Shown here in pieces: positions 2,284 to 25,993 of a DNA stretch of 42,595 nucleotides. The stretch lies in NCBI GenBank assembly GCA_026989655.1, contig JALSIX010000069.1, positions 1-42,595 of the forward strand, given 5' to 3'. The stretch is from Caldilineaceae bacterium. GTDB taxonomy: Bacteria > Chloroflexota > Anaerolineae > Caldilineales > Caldilineaceae. The stretch's first letter is position 1, and each line of letters begins with the position of its first letter. The position numbers and the translations under genes were made by a program. The notes under the pieces are model-generated. The model was given only the letters and a program-made list of their open reading frames with translations. It was not told the origin of the DNA and did not search any database.

Positions 2284-2379
2284 GGAGCTGCCCCCACGCA
2301 ACGAACCGAACCGATGGGCAGCTCGCTGCCGTCCACCCTGTCCGGATCGCATCGGACCCCACACGAAAGGAGTCTCTGT

Positions 2380-4086
2380 ATGGGTCGCAAGGACGTGTTG
2401 CTGACGATGCTCGTGGCCGTGCTCTTCGTGGTGAGCGCCTGCGCCGCGCCGGCTCAGCCGGGCGCGGCCCCGGAAGCCGCCGAGGCCGGCGAGGCCGGAG
2501 GCGGCGCCATGGAGGCCCAGCCGGCCAGCGCGCCGCTCATTGTGGCCATGTACCAGGAGCCCGAGTCCCTGAACCCCTATCTCTCGGTGCAGACGGTGAC
2601 CAACGTGGTGGCCACCGCGGTGCTGGAGGGCCTGCTGAGCATCGGCCCGGACGGGGAGTTCATCCCGGTGCTGGCCACGGAGGTGCCGTCGGTGGCCAAC
2701 GGTGGGCTCTCGGAGGACGGGCTCACCGTCACCTACCGCCTGCGGGAGGGCGTGCTCTGGGCCGACGGCAAACCCTTCACCTCCGCGGACGTGAAGTTCA
2801 CCTGGGAGGCCATCATGGACGACCGCAACGCGGTGGTCAGTCGGGCCGGCTACGACCAGATCGAGAGCATCGAGACGCCCGACGACTACACCGTGGTGGT
2901 CAAGTTCCGGGAGCTGTACGCGCCGGCCCTGACCCTCTTCGAGTACATCCTGCCGGCCCATGGCTTCGACGGCGACAAGGACATGACCGGCGCCGCGTTC
3001 AACCGCACACCCTTCGGCACCGGCCCCTTCGTGGTGAAGGAGTGGACCTCCGGCGAGAGCATCGTCCTGGAGGCGAACCCCAACGCGTGGCGGCCTCCGA
3101 AGGTGGATCGGCTCATCTTCCGCATCACCCCCAGCCGAGAGGCCAGCGTCCTCCTGCTCAAGTCCGGAGAGGCCGAGGTGGTCTGGGACCTGATCGAGGC
3201 CTCCATTCCCGAGCTCCAGGACAACCCGGACATCGCGCTCTGGTCCACTCCCTCCTCCCGGGTGGAGTACCTGGGCCTGAACCTGGCCCAGCGGGGTGAC
3301 CCCGCGGACCCGGACCAGCCTCACCCCATCCTGGGCGACATCCGCGTCCGCCAGGCCATCAGCCTGGCCATCGATCGCAACGTGCTGGTGGACGAGCTCC
3401 TCTACGGCATGTCCACGGTGGCCACCTCCGCCATCGGCATGGGCTGGGCCGCGGATCCCACCATCGCGGTCGCGCCCACGGACCCGGACCAGGCCCGGGC
3501 CCTGCTGGAGGAGGCCGGCTGGATGGACACGGACGGCGACGGCATCCGGGAGAAGGATGGCCAGCGCCTGAGCCTGGAGATCACCACCACCTCGGGCAAC
3601 AAGCTGCGGGAGCTCTCGGAGCAGGTGATCCAGCAGCAGTTGGCCGAGGTGGGCATCGAGCTCGTGATCAACAACGTGCCCTCCTCCACCCTCTTCGGAA
3701 GCTGGGCCTCCGGCGGCGTGCTCCAGCGGGGCAACTTCGACATCGCCATGGACACCTGGGGACCGGACATCGACCCGGATGGCTTCGTCTCCATCCTGTT
3801 CCACTCCTCGGCCATTCCCAGCGAGGCCGGCGGCGGTTGGAACTTCTTCCGGCTGCGGGATCCGGAGATCGACGCGGCCATCGAGGAGGCCCGCTCCACC
3901 CTGGACATCGAGACCCGCAAGAAGGCCTATGCCAAGCTGGCCCGGCTGGTCAACGAGTCCTACGCGTATATCCCGCTCTACAACCGACTCTTGCTCCACG
4001 GCTTCAAGGGCGACGTGACCGGGTGGACACCCAACCCCTGGGAAGAGCTGACCTGGGACGTGGCCCAGTGGGAGCACCGACCGTAG
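2380..4086 (+). CDS. ABC transporter substrate-binding lipoprotein, SBP family 5 (system 1)
   Basis: Extracytoplasmic receptor of an Opp/Dpp-type importer (peptide, nickel or related solutes), 568 residues. The start at 2380 is chosen because GAAAGGAG lies just upstream and the product opens with a lipoprotein signal peptide ending VVSAC. An Ala/Gly/Glu-rich linker follows, then the canonical family order: EPESLNPY near the start of the mature domain, WADGKPFTSADVKF, GTGPF, a LLLKSGEAEVV block, IRVRQAISLAIDR, and a DTDGDGIR loop. Two permease genes follow but no ATPase gene. A pair of stem-loops separates it from the first permease gene. Substrate cannot be read from the sequence; the nearby metal genes do not by themselves argue for a metal. 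Confidence 0.92.
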   Translation: MGRKDVLLTMLVAVLFVVSACAAPAQPGAAPEAAEAGEAGGGAMEAQPASAPLIVAMYQEPESLNPYLSVQTVTNVVATAVLEGLLSIGPDGEFIPVLATEVPSVANGGLSEDGLTVTYRLREGVLWADGKPFTSADVKFTWEAIMDDRNAVVSRAGYDQIESIETPDDYTVVVKFRELYAPALTLFEYILPAHGFDGDKDMTGAAFNRTPFGTGPFVVKEWTSGESIVLEANPNAWRPPKVDRLIFRITPSREASVLLLKSGEAEVVWDLIEASIPELQDNPDIALWSTPSSRVEYLGLNLAQRGDPADPDQPHPILGDIRVRQAISLAIDRNVLVDELLYGMSTVATSAIGMGWAADPTIAVAPTDPDQARALLEEAGWMDTDGDGIREKDGQRLSLEITTTSGNKLRELSEQVIQQQLAEVGIELVINNVPSSTLFGSWASGGVLQRGNFDIAMDTWGPDIDPDGFVSILFHSSAIPSEAGGGWNFFRLRDPEIDAAIEEARSTLDIETRKKAYAKLARLVNESYAYIPLYNRLLLHGFKGDVTGWTPNPWEELTWDVAQWEHRP

Positions 4087-15936: not shown

Positions 15937-16292
15937 TGGCGTCGGAAGCGTTCCCGAGTCGCGGAGATGGTGGACTCGGCCCCCACAACGACGGTGGCTT
16001 CTGTCCAGTGCCCTCGCAGCCGATCGGTTGGGTGAGCTGGGCCCCTTCGGTGACCGCCTCTGGGCCCGGACCCGAACCGGGGCTGCACATCTCCTCCCCT
16101 CGGCCCAGGGACCGCCGTGGCGGCACGGGGTCCGGCGTGTGGCGAGAGCGCGACCGGGCGCTTCTCCTGGGCGGCCCGCCCCTCTCGGGCCGTTCGGCAT
16201 CGCGCTGCACCGCCGAACCTGGATCCAGTGTACCGAGTGGCATCCCTGTTCAGCCGGAGTATCCACCCATCAACACCCCACAGGAGGTGCGT

Positions 16293-18902
16293 ATGCGCAG
16301 ACAGACGAAGATCCGCTGGATGGTGCTGGCCTGGGCTGTGATCCTGGCCCTGTTGGTCGCGGCCTGCCAGCCCTCCGAAACCCCTACCCCGGAGCCCGAA
16401 GAGCCGGCAGCGGCCGTGGAGGAGCCCACGGCCACCCCGGTGCCTGAGGAGCCCACCCCCACCCCAGTCCCCGAGGAGCCCACCCCCACCCCTGAGCCCA
16501 TGATGGAGGAGGAAGAGGAAGGGGAGCGCATGGGCGCGTGGGTGGACCAGGTGGTCTTCACCATCCAGCCCGAGGCCAACGCGGCGGTGGCCCAGCTCCA
16601 GGCCGGGGATATCGACATCTACGGGGCTCCTGCCATCAACGATCCGGAGCTCTTCCCCCGGGTGCGGGACGACGAGAACCTGACCTACTTCCAGTCCTTC
16701 GGCTCGTACAACGAGCTGACCATGAACCCCGCGGAGTTCACCGACGGCCGCCTGAATCCCTTCACCAACCCCCGGATCCGGGAGGCCATGAACTGGCTCA
16801 TCGACCGGAACTACGTGGCCCAGGAGATCTACGGCGGCCTGGCCGTGCCCAAGTTCGAGCCCATCACCTCCGCGTTCCCCGACTACGCCCGCTACGTGGA
16901 CAAGGTCCGGGAGATCGAGGCCAAGTACGCCTACGACCTGGAGAAGGCCCGGGAGGTGATCACGGCCGAGATGGAGGCCATGGGCGCGGAGATGGTGGAC
17001 GGGGTGTGGAGCTACAACGGGGAGCCCATCACCCTGGTCTTCCTCATCCGGGTGGAGGATCGCCGGCGCATGATCGGCGACTACATCTCCAACCAGTTGG
17101 AGGAGCTGGGCTTCCAGGTGGATCGGCAGTACAAGACCAGCTCCGAGGCCGCGGCCCTGTGGATCCGCTCGGACCCGGCTGAGGGCGGCTGGCACCTCTA
17201 CACCGGCGGCTGGATCACCACCGCGGTGAGCCGAGACCAGGGCGGCAACTTCAGCTTCTTCTACACGCCTCGCGGCCTGGGCGTGCCCCTGTGGCAGGCC
17301 TACACCCCGGACGAGGAGTTCGACCAGGTGAGCCTCCGCCTGGAGAACAACGACTTCGCCACCCTGGAGGAGCGGGATGAGCTCTTCCGCCGGGCCCTGG
17401 AGCTGGCGCCCCAGAACGCCTTCCGGGTCTGGATCGTGGACACGGTGGGCTTTACCCCGGCCGCCGCGGGCCTGCAGGTGGCCTACGACCTGGCCGGTGG
17501 CGTGGCAGGCTCCTCCCTGTGGCCCTACACCATCCGCTACGAGGGCCAGGTGGGCGGCACCGTCCGCTGGGCCCAGCAGAACGTCCTGGTGGAGCCCTGG
17601 AACCCCATCGCCGGCTCCAACTGGATCTACGACACGGACGTCCAGCGGGCCACGGGCGAGTTCGCGGTGAACTCCAACCCCTACACGGGGCTGGGCGTGC
17701 CCAACCGCATCGAGCGGGCCGAGGTGGTGGCCCAGACCGGCACCCCCATGGGCAAGACCCTGGACTGGGTGACCCTGGAGTTCCAGGACGAGATCGTGGT
17801 GCCCGAGGACGCCTGGGTGGACTGGGACCCGGTGGAGCAGCGCTTCATCACCGCGGCCGAGAAGTACACGGAGACCGTCACCGCCAAGACCAAGGTCACG
17901 GTCTACTACCCCGCGGACCTGTACGAGAAGGTGAAGTGGCAGGACGGCAGCCCCTTCTCCGTGGCCGACGTGGTCATGGGCATGATCCTGACCTTTGACC
18001 GGGGCAAGGAGGAGAGCGCCATCTTCGATGAGTCCGCCAAGCCCAGCCTGGACTCCTTCCTGAGCCACTTCAAGGGCGTGCGCATCGTCTCCACCGACCC
18101 GCTGGTCATCGAGACCTACGACGATGCCTTCGCGCTGGACGCGGAGAACACGGTGACCGCCTGGTGGCCCTACTACGACCAGGGCCAGGCCGGCTGGCAC
18201 GCGCTGGTGCCCGGCATCCTGGCCGAGGAGAACCAGGAGCTGGCCTTCTCCTCGGACAAGGCCGACGCCCTGGAGGTGGAGTGGATGAGCTACGTGGCCG
18301 GGCCCAGCCTGGAGATCCTCCAGAAGTACCTGGACCAGGCCATGGCCGAGGGCTACATCCCCTACGCCAACACCCTGGGCCAGTTCATCACCCCGGAGGA
18401 GGCCGCGGCCCGCTACCAGAACCTGGCCGACTTCTTCGCGGAGTGGGGCCACTTCTGGGTGGGCACCGGGCCCTTCATCCTGGATGACGTCTCGCCGGTG
18501 GAGGGCACCGTGACCATCGTCCGGAACCCGGACTACCCGGATCCCGCCACCAAGTGGGCCGGCTTCGGCGAGCCCAAGCTGGCCGATGTGGAGGTGGACG
18601 GTCCGGGCCAGGTGGTGGCCGGCCAGGAGGTGGTCTTCGACGTCTTCGTCACCTTCAAGGATGCCCCCTATCCGGCCGCGGAGATCAGCGCGGTGAAGTA
18701 CCTGGTCTTCGACGCCACGGGCACCCTGGTGGCCACGGGGACGGCCGAGGCCATCGCGGACGGCGAGTACATGGTCACCCTGGGCGGTGACGTCACCGAG
18801 CAGATGGAGGCCGGCGCGGCCAAGATCGAGGTGGCGGTCACCTCCACGGTGGTCAGCATCCCGCGCTTCAGCACCTTCGAGTTCGTGGTGGTGGCCCCCT
18901 AA
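16293..18902 (+). CDS. Circularly permuted SBP family 5 lipoprotein with Ig-like tail (system 2 receptor)
   Basis: An 869-residue extracytoplasmic receptor. A lipoprotein signal ends LVAACQ, then a Pro/Thr/Glu linker to about residue 78. The conserved blocks of the family then appear out of order. Residues ~83-415 hold what is normally the second part (VDQVVFTIQP, LQAGDIDIY, IREAMNWLIDR, NQLEELGFQVDR). Residues ~421-750 hold what is normally first (GGTVRW, VKWQDGSPFSVADVV, GTGPF near 724, RNPDYP near 744). Residues ~760-869 are a beta-rich Ig-like domain. AGGAGGTGCGT fixes the start at 16293. It is followed by a strong stem-loop and then permease and ATPase genes. Peptide or oligosaccharide uptake is likely; substrate is unknown. 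Confidence 0.88.
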   Translation: MRRQTKIRWMVLAWAVILALLVAACQPSETPTPEPEEPAAAVEEPTATPVPEEPTPTPVPEEPTPTPEPMMEEEEEGERMGAWVDQVVFTIQPEANAAVAQLQAGDIDIYGAPAINDPELFPRVRDDENLTYFQSFGSYNELTMNPAEFTDGRLNPFTNPRIREAMNWLIDRNYVAQEIYGGLAVPKFEPITSAFPDYARYVDKVREIEAKYAYDLEKAREVITAEMEAMGAEMVDGVWSYNGEPITLVFLIRVEDRRRMIGDYISNQLEELGFQVDRQYKTSSEAAALWIRSDPAEGGWHLYTGGWITTAVSRDQGGNFSFFYTPRGLGVPLWQAYTPDEEFDQVSLRLENNDFATLEERDELFRRALELAPQNAFRVWIVDTVGFTPAAAGLQVAYDLAGGVAGSSLWPYTIRYEGQVGGTVRWAQQNVLVEPWNPIAGSNWIYDTDVQRATGEFAVNSNPYTGLGVPNRIERAEVVAQTGTPMGKTLDWVTLEFQDEIVVPEDAWVDWDPVEQRFITAAEKYTETVTAKTKVTVYYPADLYEKVKWQDGSPFSVADVVMGMILTFDRGKEESAIFDESAKPSLDSFLSHFKGVRIVSTDPLVIETYDDAFALDAENTVTAWWPYYDQGQAGWHALVPGILAEENQELAFSSDKADALEVEWMSYVAGPSLEILQKYLDQAMAEGYIPYANTLGQFITPEEAAARYQNLADFFAEWGHFWVGTGPFILDDVSPVEGTVTIVRNPDYPDPATKWAGFGEPKLADVEVDGPGQVVAGQEVVFDVFVTFKDAPYPAAEISAVKYLVFDATGTLVATGTAEAIADGEYMVTLGGDVTEQMEAGAAKIEVAVTSTVVSIPRFSTFEFVVVAP

Positions 18903-18923: not shown

Positions 18924-18955
18924 GCTCGGTGGCCCCGACCTCGGGGCCACCGAGC
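18924..18955 (+). terminator. Stem-loop between receptor and permease genes (system 2)
   Basis: A perfect 13-bp inverted repeat (18924-18936 with 18943-18955) with a 6-nt loop, followed by GTCTTTCTTC. It resembles an intrinsic terminator but lies inside the operon, so partial read-through is expected. Confidence 0.7.
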
Positions 18956-18979: not shown

Positions 18980-20116
18980 ATGGCACAGAGTACGGCAGCC
19001 CTGGAGACCCCCTCGGCAGAGACCGCCGGCGGCACCACCAGCACCCTGGCCCGCGTCACCAAGTACACCCTGGTCCGCGGTGTGACCCTCTTCATCACCG
19101 TGATGATCGGGGTCTACCTGACCGTGCTCATCGCGAACATGGGCGGCTACGTGGACGAGATCCGCCGGGGCGAGATCCGGGAACGGGTCTCCATCGCGGT
19201 GATGAACGACCCCGCCCTGCGCAACCTGCCGGGGGAGGAGAAACGCAAGCTCATCGAGGAGCGGATCCGGCTGGAGGAGAAGCGGCTGGGCCTGGATCAG
19301 CCCTTTCTGGTCCGGAGCTTTCGGTTTCTGCGCAACGCCATCACCCTGCAGCTGGGCCGGGCCCAGTACATGACCAGCGACAGCGGCTCCCGGCAGGTCC
19401 GCCTCATCATCCTGGAGCGCCTGCCTCCGACCCTGTTGCTCTTCGGCACCTCGAACTTATTGCTCTTCTTCATCAGCCTGGCCGTGGCCCTGAACCTCTC
19501 CCGGCGATACGGCAGCCTGTTGGACCGGATCTTCGTGGCCCTCTCGCCCACCTCCGCGGCGCCAGGATGGTTCTACGGCATCTTCCTCATCCTCATCTTC
19601 GCGGCCCTGCTCCGCTGGTTGCCCTTCGGCGGCATGGTGGACGCCCCGCCCCCGGAGGCCCCCCTGGACTACGGCCGCAGCGTCCTGGAGCACATGGTGC
19701 TGCCGGTCTTCGCCATCCTGCTCAGCGCCATCTTCGTCAGCGTCTACAGTTGGCGCACCTTCTTCCTCATCTACTCCAGCGAGGACTACGTGGAGATGGC
19801 TCGGGCCAAAGGGCTTCCCGATCGGCTCATCGAGCGGCGTTACATCCTGCGCCCCACCCTGCCCACCATCATCACCAGCTTCGCCCTGACCCTCATCACC
19901 CTGTGGACCGGGGCCCCCATCTTCGAGACGGTGTTCAACTGGCCCGGCCTGGGGCGGACCCTCTTCCAGGCCATTGGCCTCTTCGACACGGCCGTCATCG
20001 TGGGCTCTACGGTGATCTTCGCCTACCTCCTGGCCGTCACCGTCTTCCTCCTGGACATCATCTACGCCCTGGTGGATCCTCGGGTCCGCATCGAGGGCTC
20101 CGGAGGTGGCTCCTGA
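18980..20116 (+). CDS. ABC transporter permease, DppB type (system 2)
   Basis: A 378-residue membrane subunit, longer than the usual 310-330. A Ser/Thr-rich N-terminal tail precedes the first helix (about 35-53). The extracytoplasmic stretch between helices 1 and 2 is enlarged and highly charged (about residues 55-105, with EEKRKLIEERIRLEEKRLGL). The EAA loop reads YVEMARAKGLPDRLIERRYILRPTLPTI and the protein ends YALVDPRVRIEGSGGGS. The ATG at 18980 has only a weak ribosome site. The TGA overlaps the next ATG by one base, so translation of the two permeases is coupled. The enlarged loop may suit the unusual receptor of this system. Confidence 0.88.
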   Translation: MAQSTAALETPSAETAGGTTSTLARVTKYTLVRGVTLFITVMIGVYLTVLIANMGGYVDEIRRGEIRERVSIAVMNDPALRNLPGEEKRKLIEERIRLEEKRLGLDQPFLVRSFRFLRNAITLQLGRAQYMTSDSGSRQVRLIILERLPPTLLLFGTSNLLLFFISLAVALNLSRRYGSLLDRIFVALSPTSAAPGWFYGIFLILIFAALLRWLPFGGMVDAPPPEAPLDYGRSVLEHMVLPVFAILLSAIFVSVYSWRTFFLIYSSEDYVEMARAKGLPDRLIERRYILRPTLPTIITSFALTLITLWTGAPIFETVFNWPGLGRTLFQAIGLFDTAVIVGSTVIFAYLLAVTVFLLDIIYALVDPRVRIEGSGGGS

Positions 20117-21474
20117 TGGGCACCACACTGAAGGACACCCTGCGCGAGCTCCGCAAATATCCCTCGGCCCTGGCCGGCCTGTCCGTGATCCTGGCCCTGG
20201 TGGTCTTCTCGGCCTACACCCTGATCACCATCCCCTACCAGGAGGCCATCACCCTGTGGCGAGGCGGCGCGGAGATCTGGTACCGCCTGCCCCGCAACGC
20301 CCCGCCGGCCTGGATCAACCGCTTCCGCAGCGAGAAGCTGCCCGATACCCTGATCCTGCACTCGGCCGAGGGCGGCGCGGAGAAGGCCACCCAGCCCATG
20401 TCCTCGGGCCAGATCATGATCGATCTGACCTACACCTTCGACTTCACCGCGGACGACTTCCCCCGGGCCCTGGCCCTCTACTTCTCCCCGGTATACCAGG
20501 AGAAGGCCCCCTTCGTCTCCATCACCTGGACCACCCCGGACGGTCGGGAGCTCCGGATCGGGGACTTCGCGGTCACCCGGGGCACGGTCTTCCGCTTCGA
20601 GCAGGACGAGCGGCTCCAACGGCGCCTGCGTCGGCAGGTGGGGGACTACCCGGCCCACGTGGCCCTCTTCATGCAGCCCGAGAGCGATCCCCCCGTCCCC
20701 CTCAAGGGTACCTACACCCTGAAGATCAGCACCGTGGCCTTCGAGGAGGGCTCGGACCTGGACGCGGAGTTCATCTCCTACGGCCAGGTCTACGGCATCG
20801 CGGGCACGGACCACCTGCGCCGAGACCTGAAGATCGCGCTCATGTGGGGGGCGCCGGTGGCCCTGGCCTTCGGCCTGCTGGCCGCGCTGGGCACCACGGT
20901 GACCACCATGGTCATCGCGGCCTTCGGCGTCTGGTACAGCGGCTGGGTGGACGACCTGATCCAGCGGGTCACCGAGGTGAACCTGATGCTGCCCCTGCTG
21001 CCCATCCTGATCATGGTGGGCACCTTCTACTCCCGCAGCATCTGGATCATGTTGGGCGTCACCATCCTGCTCAGCATCTTCGGGGGCAGCATCAAGACCT
21101 ACCGGGCCATCTTCATGCAGACCCGGGAGTCTCCCTACATCGAGGCCGCCCAGGCCTACGGCGCGGGCGACGTCCGCATCGTCCTGCGCTACCTGGTCCC
21201 CCGGATCATCCCGGTCATCATCCCCCAACTGGTGACCCTGATCCCGACCTACGTCTTCCTGGAGGCCTCCCTGGCCGTCCTGGGCCTGGGCGACCCGGTG
21301 TTGCCCACCTGGGGCAAGGTGATCCAGGACGCCCAGAGCAACGGTGCCCTGTACAAAGGGCTCTACTACTGGGTCCTGGAGCCCGCGGGGCTGTTGATGC
21401 TCACGGGCCTGGGCTTTGCCATGGTGGGGTTCGCGCTGGATCGGATCTTCAACCCCCGACTGCGGGGACTGTAG
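20116..21474 (+). CDS. ABC transporter permease, DppC type with large extracytoplasmic insert (system 2)
   Basis: A 452-residue permease, about 150 residues longer than typical DppC. The first helix spans about residues 18-40. Residues ~45-230 form a soluble, beta-rich insert (with LTYTFDF, FVSITWTTPDGREL, GTYTLKISTVAF) placed before a relic of the family GTD-GRD block, here GTDHLRRDL. The transmembrane core follows, with EAA loop YIEAAQAYGAGDVRIVLRYLVPRIIP and a FNPRLRGL end. Translation is coupled to the preceding gene. The insert probably contacts the oversized receptor; that is inference from co-occurrence. After the stop there are 234 bases with no clear gene or promoter before the ATPase genes. 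Confidence 0.85.
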   Translation: MGTTLKDTLRELRKYPSALAGLSVILALVVFSAYTLITIPYQEAITLWRGGAEIWYRLPRNAPPAWINRFRSEKLPDTLILHSAEGGAEKATQPMSSGQIMIDLTYTFDFTADDFPRALALYFSPVYQEKAPFVSITWTTPDGRELRIGDFAVTRGTVFRFEQDERLQRRLRRQVGDYPAHVALFMQPESDPPVPLKGTYTLKISTVAFEEGSDLDAEFISYGQVYGIAGTDHLRRDLKIALMWGAPVALAFGLLAALGTTVTTMVIAAFGVWYSGWVDDLIQRVTEVNLMLPLLPILIMVGTFYSRSIWIMLGVTILLSIFGGSIKTYRAIFMQTRESPYIEAAQAYGAGDVRIVLRYLVPRIIPVIIPQLVTLIPTYVFLEASLAVLGLGDPVLPTWGKVIQDAQSNGALYKGLYYWVLEPAGLLMLTGLGFAMVGFALDRIFNPRLRGL

Positions 21475-21708: not shown

Positions 21709-22763
<1,055 letters not shown>

Positions 22764-22767
<4 letters not shown>

Positions 22768-23807
22768 CCACCACCGCACCCCAGACCGACATTGCAACCC
22801 AGTCCCCGGCCGCCCCCGCGGACGGCGGCCAGCCGCTGCTCTCGGTCCAGGACGTCCACACTTGGTTCGAGCTGCGCAAGTGGGGCTTCGGCCATGCCGG
22901 CTACGTCCGTGCCGTGGACGGCGTGAGCTTCGACCTGGAGGCCGGCCACACCATTGCCATCGTGGGCGAGAGCGGCTGTGGCAAGTCCAGCCTGATGAAG
23001 ACCATCCTGGGGCTCCATCGCCCCATCAAGGGCGACGTGGTCTTCCAGGGGCGCAGCCTGAGCGGCCTGGACCGCGGGGGCCGGCGCTGGTACCATTCCC
23101 AGGTGGGCTACGTCCAGCAGGACCCCTTCGGCGCGTTGCCTCCCTTCATGCCGGTCAAGCGGATCCTGGAGGAGCCCCTGATCGTCAACGGGGTGCGGGA
23201 GCGGGCCGAGCGGGAGCGCCGTGTTCGGGAGGTGATGGAGGAGGTGCGTCTGTTGCCCGTGGGGGATTTCCTGAACAAGTTCCCCCACCAGCTCAGCGGC
23301 GGCCAGCAGCAGCGGGTGGTCATCGCCCGGGCCATGATCCTGCGCCCCAAGCTCATCGTGGCCGACGAGCCGGTCTCCATGTTGGATGCCTCGGTGCGGG
23401 TGGAGATCCTGCGGCTGATGGAAGCCCTCCAGGAGGCCCATCGGATCGCGGTCATCTACATCACCCACGATCTCTCCACCGTCCGCTACTTCTCCCAGCG
23501 GATCTTCGTCATGTACGCGGGCAACCTGGTGGAACAGGCCGAGGTGGACGAGCTGCTGTCCAACCCTCAGCACCCCTACACCCAGGCCCTGCTGGCCGCG
23601 ATCCCCGATCCCGAGCCGGAGAACGCGCACATCTACCGGGATGTGCCCCCCGGCGAGCCGCCCAGCCTGGTCAATCCGCCTCGCGGATGCCGTTTCCACC
23701 CCCGTTGCCCCCATTTCATGCCCGGCGTGTGCGACGTGGAGATGCCACCGGACTTCGAGACGCGGCCGGGCCACAAGGTGAAGTGCTGGCTGTACCAGGA
23801 GGAGTGA
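22764..23807 (+). CDS. ABC transporter ATP-binding protein, OppF/DppF type
   Basis: A 347-residue partner ATPase. Walker A is GESGCGKS (68-75), signature LSGGQQQR, Walker B LIVADEPVSMLD, and switch YITHDLS. The C-terminal tail again carries CRFHPRCP and KCW cysteines. The motif VSMLD replaces the common TSALD, a known variation in this subfamily. The ATG overlaps the oppD-like stop (ATGA), and the ribosome site for the following small gene lies in its last codons. The two ATPases would form the heterodimer under the permease pair at 18980-21474, and could also serve systems 1 and 3. Confidence 0.9.
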
Positions 23808-24043: not shown

Positions 24044-24068
24044 CATGATCTTCGGCCTGTGTTAACCT
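24040..24068 (+). promoter_or_regulatory. Probable promoter for ABC system 3
   Basis: TTGACA (24040-24045) is perfect; TAACCT (24063-24068) is a weak -10 at 17-bp spacing. The -35 overlaps the stop codon of the upstream small gene. The leader would be about 160 nt. Confidence 0.5.
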
Positions 24069-24235
24069 GGGCTCGCACCACGGGGGGCCGTGGGGATCGG
24101 GCCTTCCCGTGTCGCTGCTGTGCTGCATCCCTCGCAGCCTCCGGACTGCCCGCGCGTTCGGCGATCGTCTCTCGGTTCCACTCTCTCCTTCCGGCATCTG
24201 CCCGGGAACCACCTCATCCAAAAGGAGGCGAATGT

Positions 24236-25993
24236 ATGTACGCCCATCGCTTCACACCGTTGGCCGTCCTGACGATCCTGGTGGTGGTGCTGGCGGCCTG
24301 TGTCCAACCCACGCCCATCGTCGAAACCGTCCGGGAGACCGTGGTGGTGACCCAGGAGGTGGAGAAGGTGGTGGTGGTCACCCCAACCCCGGTCCCGCCC
24401 AAGAGGGGCGGTGTGTGGGTGGAGGGAAGCAGCGCGGATGCCTCCATCCTGAACCCCATCCTGGCGTCGGATTCGGCCAGCTTCGACGTGCTCAGCTGGT
24501 TCTACCCCAGCCTCATCGGCCAGGATCCCTTCAGCGGTGCCGTGGTGCCCACGGAGATGGCCGAGCGTTGGGAGGTCTCCGAGGATGGGCTGGTGTGGAC
24601 CTTCTACCTCCGTGACGGGGTCCAGTGGAGCGATGGCACTCCGGTCACGGCCCAGGACTTCAAGTTCACCTACGATGCCATCGCCAGCGATCTGGTGGAG
24701 ACCCCTCGGAAGTCCAACGTGGAGCTCATCGAGAGCATCGAGATCCCGGATGACCGGACGGTGGTGGTCACCTTCAAGTCCGTCAAGTGCGATGGCCTCA
24801 CGGATCTGGGCCTGGGCTGGCTGCCCCGACACAAGTTCGCGGAGGACTTCAGCGACATCATGACCAGCCCGGAGAACGAGGCCCCCAGCGTCAGCGCCGG
24901 CCCCTTCGTCTTCAAGGAGTGGGTCCGGGACGACCGCGCGACGGTGGTGCGCAACGAGACCTACTGGAAGGGGGCGCCCTTCATGGACGGCTGGATCTAC
25001 AAGATCGTGCCGGACCCAGGCGCCCGGCTGGCCCAGCTCCAGACCGGCGAACTGGACATGATCGGCCTCCAGCCGGAACAGCTCACCACCGTGGAGCTGG
25101 ACCCGAACCTGAACATCTACAAGTTCAAGGACGACGGCTACAGCTACATCGCCCTGAACATGGGCAACCCGGAGAACCCCATGCCCGGCCGGGACGAGGA
25201 GGGGAACATCGTCGAGCAGGATCCCCACCCCATCCTGAGCGACAAGCTGGTCCGCCAGGCCATCGCCCACGCGCTGGACTACGACACCATCATCAGCAAG
25301 GTCTACCTGGGCCAGGGCTACCGGATGGCCTCCAACGTGCTGCCCGCGGTGGAATGGGCCTATGACCCCACGGTCCCCTTCTACCCCTACGAGCCCGAGA
25401 CGGCCCAGGCCCTGCTGGACGAGGCCGGATGGACCGACAGCGACGGCGACGGCGTCCGGGAGTGCAACGGCTGTGCCACCGCGGAGGAGGGCACCCCCCT
25501 GGAGCTCACCCTGATCACCAATGCGGGCAACACCACCCGCGAGGACCTGGGCGCCCTGGTCCAGGACCAGCTCAACGAGATCGGCTTCCAGATCAACTTC
25601 GAGGCCATCGAGTTCGGCACCCTGGTGCAGCAGCTCCTGGGCCAGACCTTCGACATGGTCATCATCGGCTGGACGGGCCTGGGCTCGGACCCCAACGACG
25701 ATGCCTTCTGGCACACCCGCTTCGACACCCCGGGCAGCGGCTTCAACTTCGTCAGCTACAGCAACCCCAAGGTGGACGAGCTGCTGGAGCAGGGCGTCAG
25801 CGTTCCCGGCTGCGCGCCGGAGGATCGGGCCCCCTACTACAAGGAGATCCAGCAGATCATCCACGAGGATGTACCCTACGTCTTCGTCACCGGCACGGTG
25901 GCCAACATCGGCTACAGCAAGAAGTTCAACGGCGTCAACCCGGGCCCCTGGAGCTTCTACTGGAACATCGAGAAGTGGTCTCTGGCTGAGTAG
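24236..25993 (+). CDS. ABC transporter substrate-binding lipoprotein, SBP family 5 (system 3)
   Basis: A 585-residue receptor with the blocks in normal order. The lipoprotein signal ends VLAACV, followed by a short linker with VVVTQEVEKVVVV. Then come ILNPILASD, WSDGTPVTAQDFKFTYDA, GPFVFKEW, LAQLQTGELDMIGL, VRQAIAHALDYD and the DSDGDGVRECNGC loop. That loop carries two cysteines not present in the system 1 receptor. AAAGGAGG seven bases upstream fixes ATG 24236; the nearer ATG at 24232 is in a different frame. A stem-loop separates it from its permease genes, which lack an ATPase partner in the operon. Likely peptide uptake; substrate not determinable. Confidence 0.92.
   Translation: MYAHRFTPLAVLTILVVVLAACVQPTPIVETVRETVVVTQEVEKVVVVTPTPVPPKRGGVWVEGSSADASILNPILASDSASFDVLSWFYPSLIGQDPFSGAVVPTEMAERWEVSEDGLVWTFYLRDGVQWSDGTPVTAQDFKFTYDAIASDLVETPRKSNVELIESIEIPDDRTVVVTFKSVKCDGLTDLGLGWLPRHKFAEDFSDIMTSPENEAPSVSAGPFVFKEWVRDDRATVVRNETYWKGAPFMDGWIYKIVPDPGARLAQLQTGELDMIGLQPEQLTTVELDPNLNIYKFKDDGYSYIALNMGNPENPMPGRDEEGNIVEQDPHPILSDKLVRQAIAHALDYDTIISKVYLGQGYRMASNVLPAVEWAYDPTVPFYPYEPETAQALLDEAGWTDSDGDGVRECNGCATAEEGTPLELTLITNAGNTTREDLGALVQDQLNEIGFQINFEAIEFGTLVQQLLGQTFDMVIIGWTGLGSDPNDDAFWHTRFDTPGSGFNFVSYSNPKVDELLEQGVSVPGCAPEDRAPYYKEIQQIIHEDVPYVFVTGTVANIGYSKKFNGVNPGPWSFYWNIEKWSLAE

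Follow-up and report, generated by a model that had tools for sequence, protein, structure and literature searches.

Segment order of the receptor at 16293-18902

The window analysed here is a stretch of 42,595 nucleotides from a Caldilineaceae bacterium (class Anaerolineae, phylum Chloroflexota; assembly GCA_026989655.1, contig JALSIX010000069.1). At positions 16293-18902 it carries an uninterrupted frame, running from an ATG at 16293 to a stop at 18902, which encodes a lipoprotein of 869 amino acids and has a third-position GC (guanine plus cytosine) content of 0.93. The product is related to the solute-binding receptors of family 5 (Pfam SBP_bac_5, PF00496), with the halves of the fold in exchanged order. 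We write the native order of the segments as N-C1-C2, so that the window receptor and its family read C1-C2-N. The features of the gene are the following:

16282..16287, + strand: AGGAGG, Shine-Dalgarno-like, 5 bases upstream of the ATG (read from the sequence)
16293..18902, + strand: gene of the circularly permuted family-5 solute-binding lipoprotein, 869 amino acids (frame and Pfam matches)
16293..16367, + strand: signal peptide with lipobox VAAC, Cys25 at its end (sequence)
16368..16532, + strand: disordered Pro/Thr/Glu linker, residues 26-80 (predicted local distance difference test, pLDDT, <50 for residues 1-76)
16533..17540, + strand: native C-terminal half (C1+C2), residues 81-416, here first (Pfam 147-352; 7fi3 334-755)
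17541..18572, + strand: native N-terminal half (N), residues 417-760, here second (Pfam 23-140; 7fi3 34-347)
18573..18899, + strand: beta-rich tail, possibly immunoglobulin (Ig)-like, residues 761-869 (secondary structure of the model; sub-threshold FlgD_ig match)

When the two halves were scanned separately with SBP_bac_5, the hit in the first half paired residues 83-313 with profile positions 147-352 (E = 1.8e-26), that in the second half residues 543-748 with positions 23-140 (E = 6.5e-9). The protein scores 121.2 bits, above the curated cut-off of 32.4; its profile parts depart from the canonical linear order, 147-352 standing ahead of 23-140, and it is therefore classed as a circularly permuted SBP_bac_5 derivative and not as an ordinary member. 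A first-pass annotation of this DNA had claimed such a permutation, and the two partial hits in swapped profile order bear it out, as does its view that no block is duplicated: each part of the profile is present once, which rules out two full receptor domains in one protein. Two further receptors of the window (2314-4086 and 24059-25993), which the annotation had taken as normally ordered, indeed match in one full stretch each (profile 2-365 and 5-355). These ordinary Opp/Dpp receptors share with the permuted one the Pfam family, the lipoprotein type and the Opp operon, but their fold order is linear, and the permuted protein has a longer N block (~340 residues) and an extra C-terminal tail. 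A six-frame scan of the source genome gave 27 SBP_bac_5 matches, only two of which, including the window gene, have their parts out of order. Domain searches that work linearly and list just the top stretch of each protein miss such changes of order.

The sequence of the Thermococcus kodakaraensis OppA structure 7fi3, solved with a bound pentapeptide, was compared with a family profile built from an alignment (A1) of 33 relatives. The order was swapped here as well: the second block aligned with chain residues 63-307 (E 2.4e-14), the first block with 331-584 (E 1e-32). The AlphaFold2 model of the whole protein has a mean pLDDT of 88.5 and a predicted template modelling score (pTM) of 0.83, and only residues 1-76 are disordered. 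A structural comparison of the kind that the first-pass annotation had proposed gave, block by block, matches in exchanged order: residues 77-419 of the model match 7fi3 334-755 (Z 26.4, root-mean-square deviation 2.6, 338 aligned), while residues 417-760, folded alone with a pLDDT of 93.8, match 7fi3 34-347 (Z 29.3, root-mean-square deviation 2.6, 299 aligned). Both halves hence carry the fold of solved family-5 members; residues 77-419 also match many family-5 receptors to their native C termini, for instance 1xoc 208-520. By sequence and by predicted structure, 7fi3 is the best match of both halves, including the long N-terminal block, but it is built in the native order N-C1-C2 whereas the window receptor reads C1-C2-N followed by the tail. 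Since the blocks match successive parts of 7fi3 in reverse order, the model places the meeting point of the old C and N termini near residues 417-422; in both block alignments the link between these termini is only a few residues long. The new termini fall, in the model, between the RNPDY and VDQVVF strands. The pTM of 0.83 lends support to a putative closure of both halves into one two-lobed clamp. In the profile and block comparisons, no outcome appeared that the first-pass annotation had named as refuting its claim.

The first-pass annotation had also described an extra Ig-like domain at the C-terminal end. Residues 761-869 are beta-rich in the whole-protein model, as it had stated; the FlgD_ig match reaches 18.8 bits against a cut-off of 27, so that the Ig-like identity of the tail is plausible and not established. 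The tail has no counterpart in some relatives, among them L029 and L040, which stop before it.

Conservation of the order in other genomes

A scan of genome contigs located relatives at 36 loci in Chloroflexota and other phyla, in line with the earlier suggestion that related proteins might exist. They come from Anaerolineae, Dehalococcoidia, Bipolaricaulota/Acetothermia and Caldatribacterium, and from single bins labelled Bacillota, Caldisericota and Neomarinimicrobiota. The N block was matched in 55 of 199 genomes of the class, and a query rejoined in native order was matched in 57 of 400 genomes of the phylum. The homologue survey called for in the first-pass annotation gave a uniform answer: with both blocks in one frame, C stands ahead of N in 33/33 tabulated loci. 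This count derives from the list obtained with the rejoined query, and left out the Dehalococcoidia loci treated below and weak matches to ordinary receptors. Members of the permuted family match SBP_bac_5 in 32 of 33 cases, and many relatives of the window receptor have lipoboxes too. A second permuted subfamily, ~30% identical, keeps the same order (L061-L066, L132, L135). Against the rejoined query, ordinary receptors each align over one continuous stretch that spans the join at 344/345 (for instance 290-544, 302-551 and 303-489), and therefore N-C1-C2 is the general order. Among plasmids no close relative of native order was found, and no record covers 80% of the query. These comparisons indicate an old permutation that many uncultured bacteria have in common and that is fixed in a family centred on Anaerolineae.

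Two minor features of the relatives were recorded. An insertion of ~90-115 residues lies inside the N block, at or near one site, in the window-order relatives L034, L067, L068, L127 and L128. The relative at L038:5839-8585 is split over three frames and represents a frameshifted or misassembled copy in a metagenome-assembled genome.

Further rotations among related receptors

The order C2-N-C1 occurs in two family relatives, L094 (L094:215-2554, - strand; genome G213) and L129 (L129:1349-3622, + strand; genome G580), and in both a separate lipobox signal peptide immediately precedes C2. Both are Dehalococcoidia paralogues, and each has a window-order paralogue in its own genome. We placed them in a tree of 46 proteins whose segments had all been given a common order. 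Each of the two groups as sister to a protein from its own genome, L129 to L131 (100/99) and L094 to L040 (100/100). Forcing L094 and L129 together costs 165 log-likelihood units, with a p value of 3e-47 in the approximately unbiased (AU) test. A single origin of C2-N-C1 in these two proteins is thus rejected by the tree and the AU test; both lie on fairly long branches. The separate sister placements and the AU test argue that the second rotation, to C2-N-C1, happened twice under the 46-protein tree, a reading for which the long branches call for caution.

The N-C1 junction of L094 reads RFFFLMED-HEGDDQGRVPPVEPIPAA-RTGAWID and is made up of three pieces: the C-terminal end found in the window-order form, a linker rich in proline that resembles lipoprotein linkers, and the N terminus of the mature window-order form. 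Moreover, the signal peptide of L094 closely resembles that of L095, a window-order paralogue in the same genome. This composition points to the trace expected of a tandem duplication followed by fusion and trimming. Finally, L157 (L157:2-1339) is truncated at the edge of its contig and has the order N(tail)-linker-C1-C2-stop; it may be either a protein that regained the native order or a partly duplicated intermediate.

The genome of the window contains a further case, G000:C92:5623-7341 (L075:2624-4342), a Dpp-like lipoprotein of 573 residues with the order C2-N-C1, in which positions 395-519 of an ordinary-receptor profile stand ahead of 72-378. The same arrangement recurs in nine relatives from further genomes of the class (segments with E values of 1e-14 to 1e-21 and 1e-45 to 1e-71), and the permutation is an event unrelated to that of the window family. 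The cut points recur: that of the Dpp-like receptor lies near profile positions 378-395 and that of L129 also near 378. From these comparisons, at least three further permutations appear to have taken place in related proteins besides that of the window family. We regard it as likely that family 5 has undergone recurrent serial permutation, from N-C1-C2 to C1-C2-N and from there twice to C2-N-C1, and separately from N-C1-C2 to C2-N-C1 in the Dpp-like lineage, using few cut points and with duplication leaving linker scars. If so, every rotation of the three-segment cycle would occur naturally, one perhaps leading back to the native order (L157, incomplete).

As a rule, a natural circular permutation is inferred by comparing distant proteins. 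In the present case closely related paralogues that share a genome differ by rotation, and the preserved tandem pair and fusion scar allow a stepwise test of the duplication model. Permuted and split binding proteins for sensors have been made by trial; the natural permutants reveal safe cut sites in the binding clamp, which is relevant to sensor engineering. The statement of the first-pass annotation that it knew of no described example holds for family 5 within the titles and abstracts searched: these returned mostly engineered sensors and no natural family-5 permutation, the search lay outside most subscription journals, and priority is not established. Term searches of papers detecting or reviewing permutations likewise gave no mention of such binding proteins. 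Taken more widely the statement needs qualifying, as a CPSARST study (PMC2395249) reported circular permutants among the glycine-betaine- and molybdate-binding proteins of ATP-binding cassette (ABC) importers. Those too are natural permutations of periplasmic-binding-type proteins; they belong, however, to other binding-protein families, with <24% identity, and were detected by structure, whereas the window family was detected by sequence and includes close paralogues that are cut at different points.

Operon, origin and alternative explanations

Downstream of the receptor gene lie the following genes:

18980..20116, + strand: OppB-type permease (BPD_transp_1)
20116..21474, + strand: OppC-type permease with a long insert between OppC_N and BPD_transp_1 (OppC_N 5-42, BPD_transp_1 267-450)
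21709..22767, + strand: OppD-type ATPase with oligo_HPY (domain match)
22764..23807 (start approximate), + strand: OppF-type ATPase with oligo_HPY (domain match)

At loci with long enough flanks the order receptor-OppB-OppC-OppD-OppF is the rule. An Opp/Dpp-type receptor is recognised in the lipobox and in the two permeases and two ATPases encoded alongside. Because the receptor heads this conserved operon, peptide import is its likely job; that its ligand is an oligopeptide we infer from 7fi3 and the operon.

We consider it very probable that the window protein serves an Opp-type ABC importer as its substrate receptor, and that circular permutation has rearranged the receptor's family-5 (cluster C) fold, probably via tandem duplication and fusion. 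In such a protein, the old N and C termini would be connected through few residues and the chain opened in the loop that leads from the RNPxY to the VDxVxF strand, with the lipid anchor at the new N terminus. The two-lobed clamp would close around a peptide and pass it to the OppBCDF complex encoded downstream. As to its origin, the receptor gene most likely underwent tandem duplication and in-frame fusion, after which the outer parts would have been lost. A review (PMC3320104) gives duplication, and fission and fusion, as the two main models for the origin of permutations; duplication is favoured here by a tandem pair of window-order copies in L130 and by the linker scar in L094.

Several points weigh against this interpretation. 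The likeness of the N block is close to the archaeal OppA only, as its matches to all other solved chains have Z <10. The route through duplication is seen in the later rotations and not in the original one. Finally, family-5 receptors bind sugars and metals too. Indeed, the structural matches include family-5 sugar receptors (TM1223 with mannobiose, chitin-binding proteins), so that an oligosaccharide or metal chelate as ligand, or a sensor role in place of peptide import, may be considered; we judge this unlikely given that 7fi3, the nearest solved relative of both halves, contains a pentapeptide and that the operon has the full OppBCDF set.

An alternative to closure within one chain is a domain-swapped dimer, in which the N and C blocks of different chains would complete each clamp. 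Swapping is known for the family-5 fold (8qlh, AliC), but the confident monomer model over both blocks and the short link between the native termini described above make this arrangement improbable. Since the window comes from a draft assembly of 150 contigs, the order might even reflect pieces of two adjacent ordinary receptor genes fused in reading through an assembly error or frameshift. The gene is, however, a single unbroken frame that has a start signal of its own, and dozens of independent assemblies from several phyla show the identical order; these homologues refute the artefact, to which we attach a vanishingly small probability.

The circularly permuted importer receptor remains the preferred reading, and two details of its operon complete the description. 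The insert of the OppC-type permease, of very roughly 160-200 residues, follows the first membrane helix region and is ~30-53% identical across the main-family loci; it might, as a guess, contact the permuted receptor or its tail. Between the receptor and OppB genes, at 18925-18954, lies a perfect 13-bp hairpin, CTCGGTGGCCCCG-ACCT-CGGGGCCACCGAG, of a type that can reduce permease expression relative to that of the receptor.
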